47,632 nt of DNA from Sphingomonadaceae bacterium (GTDB taxonomy: Bacteria > Pseudomonadota > Alphaproteobacteria > Sphingomonadales > Sphingomonadaceae). The position numbers and the translations under genes were made by a program. The notes beneath the pieces were generated by a model. The model saw only the letters and a list, made by a program, of their open reading frames with translations. It searched no databases and had not been told where the DNA came from. The stretch spans positions 1 through 47,632 of the forward strand of contig CANJCQ010000025.1 in the NCBI GenBank assembly GCA_947473355.1. Reading direction: 5' to 3'. Below, in pieces: positions 4,331-36,660 of this stretch; the stretch's first letter is position 1; every line of letters starts with the position of its first letter.

Positions 4331-4509
4331 ATCTTCCCCCTTGATGGGGGAAGGGTACGCAGGCTTGGTGACTTGTCGCCTAGCCGCAGTTGGATGGGGG
4401 TGTGCTCGCGGCTAAGGCTGAGCCGTGCGGCAGAGTCACCCCTATCCAACTTCGCCTAATTCGCTTCGCTCATAAGTCTCCGTATCCTTCCCCCATCGAG
4501 GGGGAAGGG
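4331..4509 (+). repeat. Pair of ~73-bp inverted repeat arms, empty form
   Basis: Left arm 4331-4403 and right arm about 4437-4509 are inverted relative to each other, separated by 33 nt. Each arm begins with a palindrome of the form CTTCCCCC-TYGA-GGGGGAAG and ends with GTTGGATGGGGGTG or a close variant; the middle differs (a G-T-C-G-C-C-T-A-G core on the left, a GAGCGAAGCGA core on the right). The same two arm types, in the same orientation, bracket the DUF559 gene at 34.4-34.9 kb. Here there is no gene between them. In RNA the whole unit could fold into a long hairpin between the SnoaL-like gene and the rpsD terminator. Confidence 0.85.
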
Positions 4510-10204: not shown

Positions 10205-10233
10205 TAGTGGTCAAAATCTGACATTTGGTGCCC
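10205..10233 (+). repeat. Left 29-bp terminal inverted repeat
   Basis: Pairs with 10879-10907 on the opposite strand with one mismatch (GTGCCC here, GTACCC there). Confidence 0.85.
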
Positions 10234-10421
10234 ATTTGCACGGTCGCTGAACGACCGGAATTGGGTGGAAAGCTGTCGTAATCCGGTGGCCAACCGGTAT
10301 CGCTGCAGCTGTGTTTGCCTGCGCGCAATTGGGCTGGATTTTAGAGCACGTTTCACGCATTATTATTTGGCGCAATTCATTCTCCACGAATCTGCGCGGA
10401 GAATGTGCAGGAGTGCCGACA

Positions 10422-10799
10422 ATGAGCAGCATGCAGGATAATGCAGCAACCGGGGCGAGGTCTGGCCATTGCTCTCTGACAACAACTGCTGTTGTTACAT
10501 TGACAGGTTTTGTCATGGGTCTGACAATTGCGGGCGACGCGCATGCCAAACCACGCACCGGAGCGCATGCGGCAAAGCATGTTCCGGCCAATGCCGCCGT
10601 CATGACAGGCAATCGGGCGCGGACCAATTCCGTGCCAGTGGCCAATGGTTCGACGAGCCCAGGTGGCGGCAGACAAACAGGTTACAAAATTGTCGAAGAA
10701 CATACTGGTATGCAGATTGCCGGGAGCCCTGCGACGACCAGGACCATGCAGGAAGCGGGTCCGGCCGCCCAGAGTTCGACGGTCACGCCTCCCAAATAG
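10422..10799 (+). CDS. Small secreted protein of unknown function
   Basis: A 125-residue protein with a Sec-type signal: a hydrophobic stretch T-A-V-V-T-L-T-G-F-V-M-G-L-T-I-A at about residues 21-36, then A-H-A before K-P-R (cleavage likely near residue 42). The mature part is small, rich in Ala/Thr/Gly/Pro, has no Cys and looks disordered. The ATG is preceded by AGGAG at 9 nt; upstream in-frame codons lack this. I do not recognise a family. It is the only gene in the inverted-repeat-bounded segment and may be its passenger. Confidence 0.55.
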   Translation: MSSMQDNAATGARSGHCSLTTTAVVTLTGFVMGLTIAGDAHAKPRTGAHAAKHVPANAAVMTGNRARTNSVPVANGSTSPGGGRQTGYKIVEEHTGMQIAGSPATTRTMQEAGPAAQSSTVTPPK

Positions 10800-10878
10800 A
10801 AATTGGCCAGATTGGCCGGCTCACGCGGCATGGTCTTGGCGTGTCTGGTTTGTTGTCGTGAGACGGCATCGCCACGCC

Positions 10879-10907
10879 GGGTACCAAATGTCAGATTTTG
10901 ACCACTA
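10879..10907 (-). repeat. Right 29-bp terminal inverted repeat
   Basis: Complement of the left repeat; its outermost three bases form the TAG stop codon of the Lrp-family gene. Confidence 0.85.
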
Positions 10908-33537: not shown

Positions 33538-34410
33538 TTAGCGGTCGTGCTGGTATCCGATCCCGTCAGCCTCGTCCAAAGGCTGGCCATCGAGCATAAT
33601 CGGCGCTTCGCCACCGGCTTGCGCATGGCCGATGCGGAATGCCGCCACCGGCGGCTGGAACGTGGGGGGCACGGTGAACAGCAACTCGTAGTCCTCGCCC
33701 CAGCGCAAAGCCTCGGCGCGCCGGTCTTCGCTGGTGACAATGGGAACGGCCGTGCTGTCGATGGCGAGCGTTACCTTGCTCGCCCGCGCCATGCGGGAAG
33801 CATCGAGCAGCAGCCCGTCCGATACGTCCATCATCGCACTGACATGCGGCGCCAGTGCCTGGCCCTCGGCCAGCAGCGCTTGCGGGCGGCGATAGGCCGA
33901 GCTGTCGCCAGTCCCGCTGCGCAATGCCTCAAGTCCCAGCATGGCCGCGCCGACTGGCCCGGTGATCCACAGCGAATCGCCGACCTGCACCCCGGCGCGC
34001 GAAGGCACCGGACGGCAAGTCGCGCGGCCGATCGCGGTCAGGCCGAGCACCTGCGGGCCGCTTCCGGCGATGGTGTCGCCGCCCAGCAGGGGGGCATTGT
34101 AGTGGTTCAGTGCTTCCTCCAGCCCGGCAAGAAACCGCGCGTCATCCGCGCCCAGCATATAGCCCAGCATGACGCCCAGCGGCTCTGCGCCCTTGGCGGC
34201 AAGGTCCGACATGTTGGTGGCGACTAGCTTCCAGGCAATGTCTGCGGGGTCTTGGCCGGCGAGGAAGTGCACACCTTCGGCCATGGCGTCGTGAGTGAGG
34301 ATCAGGGTCTCATGGCCAAGTTCCAGCACCGCGCAATCATCGGCAAGGCCGCGCGCGGCGGGATGGCCCGCAATCTTGCGCAGAGCCTCGATGAAGGCGA
34401 GTTCGCTCAT
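33538..34410 (-). CDS. thiL: Thiamine-monophosphate kinase
   Basis: A 290-residue ThiL, an AIR-synthase-fold kinase making thiamine diphosphate from thiamine monophosphate. Signs: D-D-C-A-V-L near 24-29, T-H-D-A-M-A-E-G-V-H-F (39-49), K-L-V-A-T-N-M-S-D-L-A-A-K-G-A-E-P, G-G-D-T, and M-D-V-S-D-G-L. The ATG overlaps the stop of the DUF559 gene (TAATG), and the Shine-Dalgarno-like GGGGGAAGGA before it is part of the left repeat arm, so thiL now takes its ribosome binding site from the inserted element. Confidence 0.95.
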   Translation of the reverse strand: MSELAFIEALRKIAGHPAARGLADDCAVLELGHETLILTHDAMAEGVHFLAGQDPADIAWKLVATNMSDLAAKGAEPLGVMLGYMLGADDARFLAGLEEALNHYNAPLLGGDTIAGSGPQVLGLTAIGRATCRPVPSRAGVQVGDSLWITGPVGAAMLGLEALRSGTGDSSAYRRPQALLAEGQALAPHVSAMMDVSDGLLLDASRMARASKVTLAIDSTAVPIVTSEDRRAEALRWGEDYELLFTVPPTFQPPVAAFRIGHAQAGGEAPIMLDGQPLDEADGIGYQHDR

Positions 34411-34826
34411 TATCCTTCCCCCTCGATGGGGGAAGGATGCGAAGACTTGGCAGCTTGCTGCCTAGTCGTAGCTGGATGGGGGTGATCGCGCCGCAAGAAT
34501 TCGCCAAGCTGGATCATGCACCCCTCGCCATTTCCCAGAACTTCGTTGTTCCAGAAGCGGATGACCTTGTAACCTTCAGCCTCAATATCAGCCGTCCTTC
34601 GTGCATCGACTTGCGCGTCGTGTTGGCCGCCATCTATCTCGATCACCAGTTTCAGGCGATGACTTGCGAAATCGGCGATGTGATGGCGGAGGGGGACCTG
34701 AAACCGGAAACGGGCGTCAGGGAAGAATTCCTTGAGCAATCGTCCCATTCGCAATTCGGCATCGGTCGCATTGCGACGCAGCTCCCGGGCGCGGAGGATG
34801 GAAATCGGAGGTGGATGTTTCTTCAT
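34410..34826 (-). CDS. DUF559 (Vsr-like) endonuclease-domain protein
   Basis: A 138-residue protein of the PD-(D/E)xK-like DUF559 family, related in fold to the Vsr mismatch endonuclease. Family signs: R-A-R-E-L-R-R-N-A-T-D-A-E near the start, H-I-A-D-F-A (Asp52), L-V-I-E-I-D-G-G-Q-H (Glu63, Asp65, His69), D-x-x-R and V-I-R-F-W-N-N-E-V. The candidate metal ligands are all present, so it may be active. Residues from about 115 on (ending H-P-S-P-I-E-G-E-G) are encoded by the repeat arm and are probably not part of the fold. ATG at 34826 gives the family start; an in-frame ATG at 34859 lies inside the other arm. The stop overlaps the thiL start. Confidence 0.85.
   Translation of the reverse strand: MKKHPPPISILRARELRRNATDAELRMGRLLKEFFPDARFRFQVPLRHHIADFASHRLKLVIEIDGGQHDAQVDARRTADIEAEGYKVIRFWNNEVLGNGEGCMIQLGEFLRRDHPHPATTRQQAAKSSHPSPIEGEG
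34411..34484 (+). repeat. Left arm of DUF559 cassette
   Basis: Palindrome CTTCCCCCTCGATGGGGGAAG at one end, a TTGGCAGCTTGCTGCCTAG stem-loop in the middle and GCTGGATGGGGGTG at the inner end. Same type as 4331-4403. It also supplies the thiL ribosome binding site. Confidence 0.85.
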
Positions 34827-34850
34827 CGGCGTCGAGTGTAGCCGAGAGTT

Positions 34851-34923
34851 CACCCCCATCCAACTGCGGCTAACTCGCTTCGCTCATAAGCCTCCGTATC
34901 CTTCCCCCATCAAGGGGGAAGGG
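34851..34923 (-). repeat. Right arm of DUF559 cassette
   Basis: Read on the minus strand: CTTCCCCCTTGATGGGGGAAG, then ATACGGAGGCTTATGAGCGA, then GTTAGCCGCAGTTGGATGGG. Same type as the right arm at 4437-4509. Confidence 0.85.
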
Positions 34924-34924
34924 A

Positions 34925-35371
34925 CTACGAACGCACCACCTTCGCCACAGCATCCAGCACTCCGTTGACGAATTTTGCCTCGCGCTCGTCGAAAAAGGCA
35001 TGCGCCACGTCGAGATATTCGGAGATGACGCTGCCGGTGGGCACATCGGCGCGGGCGAGCAATTCGTAGGCCCCGGCGCGCAAGATCTGCAGCATGGTCT
35101 TGTCGAGCCGCTCGATCTTCCAGCCCTCGGCGAGCTTGCCCGAAAGCAGTGTGTCGATCTCGTCGCGGCGGGCCAGCGTGCCCTTGACGACATCGTCGAA
35201 GAAGGCGGTTTCGGCCTCGGCAAAAGTCTCGTCGTCGATTTCCATGCCAAGCCGATGCTGGTGGAATTCGTCGAGCAGCCGGGCGAGCGGGGTCGCTTCC
35301 ATGTCGGTCTGGTAGAGCGCCTGGACCGCCGCAAGGCGGGCGGCGGCGCGAGCCTGAGTTCTGGCTTTCAT
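34925..35371 (-). CDS. nusB: Transcription antitermination protein NusB
   Basis: A 148-residue all-helical NusB, which with NusE (S10) binds boxA RNA in rRNA antitermination. Signs: A-R-L-A-A-V-Q-A-L-Y-Q (11-21), R-L-D-K-T-M-L-Q-I-L-R-A-G-A-Y-E-L, V-I-S-E-Y-L-D-V-A-H-A-F and F-V-N-G-V-L-D. The ATG overlaps the hisD stop (ATGA). In related genomes nusB commonly precedes thiL directly; here the DUF559 cassette separates them. Confidence 0.96.
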   Translation of the reverse strand: MKARTQARAAARLAAVQALYQTDMEATPLARLLDEFHQHRLGMEIDDETFAEAETAFFDDVVKGTLARRDEIDTLLSGKLAEGWKIERLDKTMLQILRAGAYELLARADVPTGSVISEYLDVAHAFFDEREAKFVNGVLDAVAKVVRS

Positions 35372-36660
35372 ATTCCCAATCGCACTTCGATGGAGCGCGC
35401 ATGCGCGGGCAGGCCTTCGGCATCGGCCAAGGCAATGGCCGCAGGGCCGAGCGCCTTCAGGGCGGCCTCGTCCAGTTCGATAAAGCTGGTGCGTTTCATG
35501 AAATCGAGCACCGACAGCCCCGATGCAAACCGCGCCCTGCGGCCGGTCGGCAGCACATGGTTGGGCCCGGCAATATAGTCGCCGACTGCCTCGGGGGTCA
35601 TCCGGCCGAGGAAGATCGAGCCCGCATGCCGGATCGCCTGCATCAGCACTTCGGGCTCTGCGACAGCTAGCTGGACATGCTCGGCGGCCAATGCATTGGC
35701 CAGCGCCGGGGCCTCGTCCAGCGAAGTGACTTCGATGATTACGCCATATTCGTTCCAGCTCTGCGTCGCGACGCGCGCGGTGGGCAACATGGCGAGATCA
35801 ACCCCGATCCGGTCGGCAACCAGATCAGCGAACAGCGGGTCATCGGTGATCAGGATCGATTGCGCGGTAGGATCGTGCTCGGCCTGGCTGAGCAGGTCGG
35901 CGGCGGTCCATTCGGGATCGTTCTGGCCATCGGCGATGACGAGAATTTCGCTCGGCCCTGCCACCATGTCGATGCCGACCACGCCATAAAGCTGGCGCTT
36001 GGCTTCGGCGACCCAGGCGTTGCCCGGGCCGGTGACGACATCGACCGGCTGGATCTTGTCTGTGCCATATGCCAGCGCTGCGACAGCCTGCGCGCCGCCG
36101 ATGCGCCAGATCACGTCGACCCCGGCAAGATGCGCGGCGGCGAGCACCAGCGGGCTGATTTCGCCATTTGGCGTGGGCGTCACCACGACAAGGCGCTCCA
36201 CACCAGCAACCTTGGCCGGAATGGCATTCATCAGCAGTGAGCTTGGGTAACTTGCCCGCCCGCCCGGAATATAGAGCCCCGCCGCGTCCACCGGCAGCCA
36301 GCGCGCGCCCAGCCGCACCCCGGCCTCGTCGCGGCTGTCGCGGTCCTGCGGGAGCTGCGCCTCGTGATAGGCGCGGATGCGCTGCGCCGCGAGCTCAAGC
36401 GCGGCGCGAAGGTCAGGTTGCAGGGCGTCGAAGGCCTCGCGGCAGGCTTCGGGCGCGACGCGCCAGTCGGCGTCACTGGCAAGCTGGTGGTCGTCCCAGC
36501 GCGCGGTATATTCGATCAGGGCCGCATCGCCCCGGTTGCGGACATCGGCAAGGATCAGCGAAACATCACGCGAAACATCGTCGTCACTTTCCCGGCGATC
36601 ATTGACCAGCCGCTCGAAGGCCGCCGCAAAGCCGGGGTCGCGGGAGTTGAGCCGCAACAT
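35368..36660 (-). CDS. hisD: Histidinol dehydrogenase
   Basis: A 430-residue zinc enzyme that carries out the last two oxidations of histidine synthesis. Signs: Y-I-P-G-G-R-A-S-Y-P-S-S near 129-140, G-P-G-N-A-W-V-A-E-A-K, the catalytic E-H pair in A-A-E-H-V-Q-L, and G-P-N-H-V-L-P-T. Full length. Starts with a one-base overlap of the hisG stop (TGATG). Confidence 0.97.
   Translation of the reverse strand: MLRLNSRDPGFAAAFERLVNDRRESDDDVSRDVSLILADVRNRGDAALIEYTARWDDHQLASDADWRVAPEACREAFDALQPDLRAALELAAQRIRAYHEAQLPQDRDSRDEAGVRLGARWLPVDAAGLYIPGGRASYPSSLLMNAIPAKVAGVERLVVVTPTPNGEISPLVLAAAHLAGVDVIWRIGGAQAVAALAYGTDKIQPVDVVTGPGNAWVAEAKRQLYGVVGIDMVAGPSEILVIADGQNDPEWTAADLLSQAEHDPTAQSILITDDPLFADLVADRIGVDLAMLPTARVATQSWNEYGVIIEVTSLDEAPALANALAAEHVQLAVAEPEVLMQAIRHAGSIFLGRMTPEAVGDYIAGPNHVLPTGRRARFASGLSVLDFMKRTSFIELDEAALKALGPAAIALADAEGLPAHARSIEVRLGI

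Follow-up and report, generated by a model that had tools for sequence, protein, structure and literature searches.

A gene of the DUF559 family, enclosed by two inverted arms of ~73 nt, fills the nusB-thiL junction of a Sphingomonadaceae bacterium (assembly GCA_947473355.1, contig CANJCQ010000025.1); the 47,632-nucleotide stretch of this contig that was analysed, hereafter the window, is part of a genome of 4.05 Mb. The unit is bounded by its arms and is absent whole from the junction in six relatives, and arm type follows the protein. The favoured reading, held to be probable with some reserve, is that a DUF559 gene and its inverted arms constitute a nuclease-driven mobile unit, the arms of which are predicted to form triplexes. 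The original prediction of a nuclease-bearing repeat element thus finds support in the arms at every DUF559 gene of this genome, in their recurrence beyond it, in the tracking of arm type with the protein, and in the empty junctions of relatives.

Organisation of the element

The whole element (34413..34922, ~510 bp), delimited by sequence and inverted-repeat comparison, consists of an arm, the DUF559 gene, and an inverted arm, and makes up the entire junction between the upstream host gene nusB (34925..35371, minus strand) and the downstream host gene thiL (33538..34410, minus strand; an open reading frame with ThiL matches in relatives). The thiL-side arm (34413..34486, outer to inner on the plus strand) and the nusB-side arm (34850..34922, outer to inner on the minus strand) are 89% identical over 35 nt in their outer parts (34414-34448 versus 34888-34922, inverted) and 78% identical over 32 nt in their inner parts (34463-34494 versus 34841-34872, inverted). 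Both follow the same order: an outer palindrome CCTTCCCCC-loop-GGGGGAAGG, a spacer able to hold a small variable hairpin, and a third block, GGATGGGGG. Specifically, in the thiL-side arm the palindrome CCTTCCCCC-TCGAT-GGGGGAAGG (34414..34436, plus strand) would supply strands 1 and 2 of a predicted triplex, the small hairpin (34449..34462, plus strand) separates strands 2 and 3, and the block GGATGGGGG (34474..34482, plus strand), a mirror of GGGGGAAGG with T for one A, is the predicted third strand of a purine-motif triplex. In the nusB-side arm, the palindrome lies at 34900..34922 and the third block GGATGGGGG at 34853..34861 (both minus strand), the latter with a full mirror match (locus L005). 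The palindrome pattern has 6 matches in the window versus a mean of 0.02 in 100 shuffles. Four arms, two of this element and two of a gene-less element at 4331-4509, were folded as single-stranded DNA: three beat their shuffles by far (z -3.4 to -5.4; -5.4 for the thiL-side and -3.8 for the nusB-side arm) and the fourth is weak (-1.9). Rfam has no match within 34000-35400.

The arms are interwoven with the surrounding genes, since the thiL-side arm encodes the last ~24 codons of the DUF559 gene and the ribosome-binding-like GGAAGG of thiL, and the TAA of the former overlaps the ATG of the latter. The inverted arms around a single gene and the double coding of one arm, both put forward by the original prediction, are therefore confirmed. 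Its third claim, that the same arm types bracket an empty site at 4331-4509, stands for the arms and fails for the site: this is a gene-less, MITE-like element (miniature inverted-repeat transposable element; 4331..4509) with both arms of the type found at nusB-thiL, which pattern search and comparison with dispersed copies assign to a dispersed ~175-bp family, and the true empty sites are the junctions of relatives that hold neither gene nor arms. Apart from the gene's own, 17 of the 19 listed loci with window-type palindromes are such ~175-bp two-arm elements without a gene; the remaining two are a single-armed copy and a copy interrupted by another insertion. Gene-less and gene-bearing copies have in common, if loosely, a short motif internal to the third block, AGCTCGCCG (50% consensus).

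The DUF559 protein

The open reading frame at 34410..34859 (minus strand) matches DUF559 (PF04480) with an E-value of 1.9e-26 and 92.5 bits against a cut-off of 20.6. Its first ATG falls inside the arm, and translation probably begins instead at the ATG at 34826 (MKKHPP), judging from its presence in the related copy L104 as well. The conserved acidic and histidine residues E35, D63, E74, D76, H80, and D85 are all present in the alignment; two other positions, nearly invariant in the family, deviate (W39 to G, R53 to F). A confident structure model from a 49-row alignment (pLDDT 89.3) matches with E <0.001 only 3r3p (two chains) and 3hrl; the homing endonuclease I-Bth0305I (PDB 3r3p) comes first (best E 1.3e-5), the DUF559 structure 3hrl has an E-value of 1.3e-4, and Vsr (1cw0) is a weaker match at rank 7 (E 0.014). 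I-Bth0305I belongs to the EDxHD homing endonucleases, a class with a residue pattern of its own. The sequence profile search likewise returns 3hrl (5e-37) and 3r3p, named 'Mobile intron protein' (7e-5); its 14 further matches all lie at E >0.3. The window protein is thus predicted, from profile, alignment, and model, to be a nuclease of the PD-(D/E)XK Vsr-like fold; it matches no transposase family in the libraries searched, and PADLOC gives no match for three proteins. Selection on DUF559 is purifying (pN/pS 0.10-0.44 in 13 pairs).

According to the available text of earlier profile work, YcjD of Escherichia coli is assigned to the PD-(D/E)XK superfamily together with Vsr (PMC1189080). Similarly, the available text on the Caulobacter DUF559 protein VsrA reports that it causes the SOS response, a DNA damage signalling, in cells without a cytosine methyltransferase, and that the Vsr-methyltransferase linkage is not always required (PMC12907096). 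No cytosine methyltransferase gene directly adjoins the window gene, whose direct neighbours are nusB and thiL. DUF559 could accordingly be viewed as a Vsr-like repair or damage-response nuclease of the host, with arms that function as terminators or mRNA-stabilising hairpins, as the behaviour of VsrA and the existence of an armless DUF559 clade (see below) would suggest. However, E. coli PIT elements, which share the form of the arms, have neither promoter nor terminator activity, as stated in the available text of Holder et al. citing Hoyne and Maher 2002 (PMC4666352), and terminators need no protein-matched inverted pair, no mirrored third block, and no absence of the whole unit in relatives, which makes a host nuclease a decidedly improbable explanation.

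The arms as predicted intrastrand triplexes

On sequence grounds, the arm layout is that of the class II purine-motif intrastrand triplex as defined in the available text of Holder et al. (PMC4666352), a predicted fold. The same text reports this BoxC/PIT/TM motif in >260 genomes, with 23 occurrences in E. coli K-12 and five as inverted pairs, links it to genome instability, and leaves its origin open, stating that mobility-providing activities were never found near it; ycjD, DUF, or a nuclease are not mentioned in these passages. The window arms contain the pyrimidine strand, the loop, and the complementary purine strand of the motif, and GGGGGAAGG and GGATGGGGG agree with its mirror relation, in which A may be T. 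They exceed the ITxF loop limit of 1-6 nt: ~37 nt, with a hairpin among them, precede the third block, as against 2-4 nt in many arms of types B and C.

The mirror relation extends beyond the window. Out of 194 arms, 42 were skipped for want of a clear purine hairpin and 7 are symmetric; among the others, the third block is closer to a mirror than to a direct copy of the purine strand in 80, worse in 8, and equal in 57. Counted by distinct stem (54), 37 are for the rule, 6 against, and 11 equal. Perfect mirrors (end C/T trimmed) occur in 67 of 148 arms, versus a mean of 13.0 and a maximum of 21 when blocks are exchanged between arms, indicating that different stems tend to carry their own mirror. 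The preference for unlike types A/B in the second loop, reported for E. coli pairs, is not found here (15 A/B pairs among 33 loci versus 14.7 expected).

Arms beside other DUF559 genes

This genome has seven DUF559 genes, and inverted arms, with a sequence particular to each, stand at all seven, which turns a single odd insertion into a rule; in a stricter hairpin-plus-mirror test, L006 has no arm and L002 and L003 have one each. DUF559 is present in 29 of 41 genomes of relatives, with 74 matches, of which 69 are usable; the other five are so close to a contig end that they lack the minimum of 300 flanking bases required on each side. Counted at an inverted-pair score of at least 16, with pseudo-gene positions in the same loci as controls, an arm pair is found at 40 of the 69 loci versus 1 of 136 control positions. 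Moreover, at least one inward-facing hairpin with a mirror block accompanies 42 of the 46 strong matches (E <1e-20) outside the armless clade (controls, 0 of 88), on both sides in 31 loci and on one side in 11.

A scan of named species, queried with an alignment of twelve copies of which all but one are armed, returned at least 80 loci, spread over Alpha-, Beta-, and Gammaproteobacteria, Chloroflexota, Cyanobacteriota, and further groups; a large share of these loci come from metagenome bins, which may be wrongly assigned. Among the matches listed, a scope that holds for all named-species results, an inverted arm pair is found at 56 of 72 usable loci (controls, 1 of 146) and at least one inward triplex arm at 60 of 74 (controls, 3 of 139). 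The mirror and pair tests left out eight named-species and five relatives' loci because of short flanks or N, and locus L198 was excluded, its score deriving from runs of N. L131, L174, and L178, which duplicate L010, L009, and L012, were kept in the pair, mirror, and correlation tests and removed in the second-loop test. In a plasmid collection, 5 of 9 copies examined, out of 33 records found, have an inverted pair. Because the pairing of gene and repeat recurs across many bacterial groups, the enzyme likely moves the arm repeats around genomes.

One locus (L222, G276:C1 2474957-2475894) holds two related DUF559 domains next to each other, which may represent a tandem duplication of the unit.

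Arm type, protein, and palindrome numbers

On a protein tree of 67 domains (7 of the 74 being too short), which has few columns and many open forks, the arm type, labelled A-D by eye, changes 12 times versus 35.7 for shuffled labels, and 0 of 200 shuffles are as low; L036 (score 9.5) and L093 (14.5) were retained despite scores below 16. A label-free test on the relatives (n=40) correlates protein identity with arm similarity at rho 0.515 (maximum of 1000 permutations, 0.173) and still at 0.444 without pairs of at least 60% identity. The co-occurrence of DUF559 subfamily and arm subtype, which had been proposed for checking, is thus borne out.

Window-type palindromes are present in all four genomes with the window nuclease clade, in 34, 19, 4, and 2 copies, the nuclease gene of the last (G012) being broken by a stop codon; among the other 37 genomes, three have them (3, 3, and 2 copies) and 34 have none. 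Each of the seven genomes in which a nuclease bears the exact C-type stem has 14-65 exact C-type palindromes, 30 other genomes have 0-5, and the B-type pattern is matched in 8 of 41. These numbers bear on the idea that the nuclease polices the repeats in the service of the host: it would recognise triplex arms, cut or resolve them and thereby restrain or stabilise the repeats, and would be kept next to the arms as a sensor. Purifying selection would fit such policing, as would the copies that share flanks across named species with their arms intact; conversely, presence of the matching nuclease goes with higher, not lower, numbers of palindromes of a given type, and the idea is considered very improbable.

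The same distribution concerns the question of whether DUF559 is a passenger, either cargo of arms that are moved by an unrelated transposase, such as RAYT, or by the host, or spread by recombination between arms. Gene-less arms abound, other cargo between them was not looked for since the searches began from DUF559, and E. coli alleles that lack the stretch between two arms (see below) indicate that arms do recombine or slip. However, ordinary cargo would not explain why all seven DUF559 genes of this genome are armed, and the Y1 transposase, the only one tested, occurs in 13 of 41 genomes, 3 of them among the 11 that have at least 14 C-type palindromes, a distribution that rules out RAYT as the mover of the arms. 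A passenger role is therefore judged improbable.

Boundaries, empty junctions, and age

For the boundaries, 16 of 111 pairs of related elements were chosen on the ground that both of their ends are bounded, and ten of the 16 have no flank match on either side; in these ten, 15 of 20 homology ends lie within 15 bp of the outer ends of the arms, with the caveat that pairs share loci and are not independent. In an eleventh pair (L150/L175), both ends fall inside the arms and the flanks have a chance-like match of 20 bp.

At nusB-thiL, the nusB stop and the N-terminal LxDD motif of ThiL are no more than 230 bp apart in 21 of 29 relatives, too little to accommodate the element, and in the other 8 no ThiL was found downstream. 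In six relatives of the same genus, nusB and thiL abut or overlap with neither DUF559 gene nor arms, so that the presence/absence expected of a mobile element is clean at this junction and the arrangement is not fixed across the family. The trpB-trpA junction, which another DUF559 copy of this genome (L003) occupies, gives a comparable picture among 18 same-genus loci: a gap of 0-9 bases in six, the element in two, other sequence in nine, and one that cannot be judged. In both operons, the stop and start codons of empty junctions overlap or nearly do so, and the arm brings a stop codon and a purine-rich site; it is proposed that insertion between such tightly packed genes is tolerated because the arm supplies the stop codon and a ribosome-binding site.

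Several further observations concern these junctions. The nine trpB-trpA loci with other sequence (within L264-L281) hold 137-538 bp, some with small reading frames, in what appears to be a tolerant junction, and the sequence in G003 ends in a hairpin that resembles a lone arm. Just after nusB, a single gene-less triplex-type arm is found in G036 (L058) and an apparent decayed window-type arm in G009 (L055). In L104 (G019), the DUF559 frame continues in frame through the arm into ThiL, giving a fused open frame of 430 residues.

The same nusB-thiL insertion is found in G000, G019, and G295, and a related element occupies the same junction in another genus (G093, G169, and G337). As the element is common to several genomes, the window copy is, by this comparison, old rather than recent. 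The host and protein trees are compatible either with one old insertion at nusB-thiL followed by losses or with several insertions.

These junctions bear most directly on the main rival, homing, in which something else spreads the arm pairs and DUF559 encodes a homing endonuclease: the enzyme would cut arm pairs, which then receive a copy of its gene, so that the arms would be a target instead of the ends of a unit. Among solved structures of named activity, the homing endonuclease I-Bth0305I is indeed the closest relative; gene-less pairs share termini with the gene-bearing elements and, loosely, the short motif beyond the third block; and exact C-type palindromes are abundant (16-25) in four genomes without a nuclease bearing the exact stem, a number that tells against a nuclease-driven unit as well. 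Conversely, the closest relatives have neither gene nor arms at nusB-thiL and trpB-trpA, and the only lone arms or remnants seen at nusB are those of G036 and G009, both more distant or diverged. Moreover, the nucleases of one genome bear different arm types, arm type follows the protein, and the highest palindrome counts belong to genomes with the matching nuclease. Homing into pre-existing arm pairs is thus considered unlikely, if a serious contender.

Proposed mechanism and the evidence against it

In the favoured reading of a nuclease-driven mobile unit, one that has likely moved as a whole, the purine hairpin and the mirror block would fold when the DNA is single-stranded, for example at a replication fork; the Vsr-like nuclease would cut beside or within its own folded arm; and host repair would insert a copy of the released unit elsewhere, or do so with an arm pair provided in trans. 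In this way, the nuclease likely spreads itself together with gene-less arm pairs, in analogy with RAYT and REPINs but by means of an unrelated enzyme and another type of end structure. Cleavage, triplex formation in the arms, movement, and the mobilisation of gene-less pairs in trans are inferred steps.

A number of results weigh against this reading. Movement, cleavage, and the triplex are predictions, none of them observed here. No target-site duplication is apparent at nusB-thiL, at trpB-trpA, or at E. coli hrpB-mrcB, sites that have diverged. Among the named-species copies, many have flanks in common, a pattern more in line with old residents than with active movers. In the named species (n=57), the correlation of protein and arm is weak (rho 0.19; permuted maximum 0.169) and falls to 0.092 without pairs of at least 60% identity. 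Within the mirror test, the 42 of 194 arms that lack a clear purine hairpin and the 57 that are undecided likewise fall outside the expected pattern. Furthermore, a well-supported group on the protein tree, the armless clade, has an inward-facing triplex arm in 0 of 16 members tested, and 0 of 6 Anaerolineales/Anaerolineaceae copies among the named species reach the arm score of 16. DUF559 therefore has other roles too and at least two ways of life; the expectation that it is always accompanied by arms holds for the seven genes of this genome and most loci elsewhere, as a rule for subfamilies and not for all DUF559.

The E. coli gene ycjD (NC_000913.3 1351407-1351760) adds two further points on this side. 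Although a TM copy lies 166 bases past its 3' end, the hairpin of that copy is oriented towards the gene and the third block away from it, opposite to the layout of an arm. Nor is there an arm pair at ycjD (score 9.0), and its neighbourhood is therefore suggestive only.

Relation to known systems

The closest counterpart of the arms is the BoxC/PIT/TM motif: as described in the available text of Holder et al. (PMC4666352), it likewise consists of a pyrimidine-purine hairpin followed by a mirrored purine block, and is dispersed, intergenic, and sometimes arranged in inverted pairs with the third blocks inward, whereas it is presented there as a repeat of unknown origin and the same form constitutes here the ends of a nuclease-gene unit. 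Many B-type arms read as the same motif and other types share its form; the window arms differ by the long spacer hairpin that precedes the third block. REPIN/RAYT systems are alike in having a small DNA-processing gene bracketed by its own palindromic repeats, together with dispersed gene-less pairs. In contrast, the RAYT enzyme belongs to the Y1 HUH transposases, whereas the gene between the present arms is predicted to encode a PD-(D/E)XK-fold nuclease, and Y1 does not track the arms. REPs also carry a GTAG foot, which is not found directly before the window palindromes: the four preceding bases are TTAT and, on the other strand, AGTC, with the GTAG of the nusB stop two bases further out.

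I-Bth0305I (PDB 3r3p) shares the fold, by model and profile, and is a mobile-element nuclease; unlike this 'Mobile intron protein', the window gene has structured inverted ends and no intron was identified. Vsr and Caulobacter VsrA have the same superfamily fold, whereas the window gene has structured arms instead of an adjoining cytosine methyltransferase gene. Insertion sequences and MITEs resemble the unit in their inverted terminal sequences, single gene, and gene-less derivatives, and differ in that here no transposase family is matched, the ends are folded motifs, and no target-site duplication was identified. The layout is therefore of a known kind, to which the enzyme class and the triplex ends are, as far as known, new. 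A link of DUF559 to these repeats was not found in the open-licence literature searched, which is not proof of its absence.

If the favoured reading is true, one small nuclease family becomes a testable agent for the origin of the BoxC/PIT/TM repeats, a role is suggested for ycjD, a second type of enzyme joins RAYT among the repeat-moving nucleases, and DNA triplex ends become a candidate recognition signal in bacteria. A broader proposal, which is tentative and falls somewhat short of an even chance, is that DUF559 founds a new class of transposable elements of ~0.5 kb, with intrastrand-triplex ends and a homing-type PD-(D/E)XK nuclease as the sole gene, which would recognise its own triplex; the BoxC/PIT/TM repeats of hundreds of bacterial genomes would have their missing source in this class, and YcjD would be a stranded relative of the driver.

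Copies in Escherichia coli and other inverted repeats

The ycjD stretch is covered to at least 80% in 3330 of 5375 matching E. coli genomes. The TM pair at hrpB-mrcB is absent from two E. coli strains examined and partly missing in a third; one allele (L254) lacks everything from the hairpin of one arm to that of the other and retains one clean hairpin. At alx-sstT, one strain examined retains one arm. According to the available text of Holder et al. (PMC4666352), the motif is not associated with plasmids; a TM-like match of 38 bp lies at 1627-1664 of NZ_CP074792.1, an E. coli record of 154,743 bp.

Lastly, the window contains another inverted repeat, of 29 nt (TAGTGGTCAAAATCTGACATTTGGTGCCC), which bounds ~700 bp at 10205-10907 and accounts for two control windows that score 26.5. 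At locus L077, a gene-less arm element is interrupted by an inverted repeat that somewhat resembles it.

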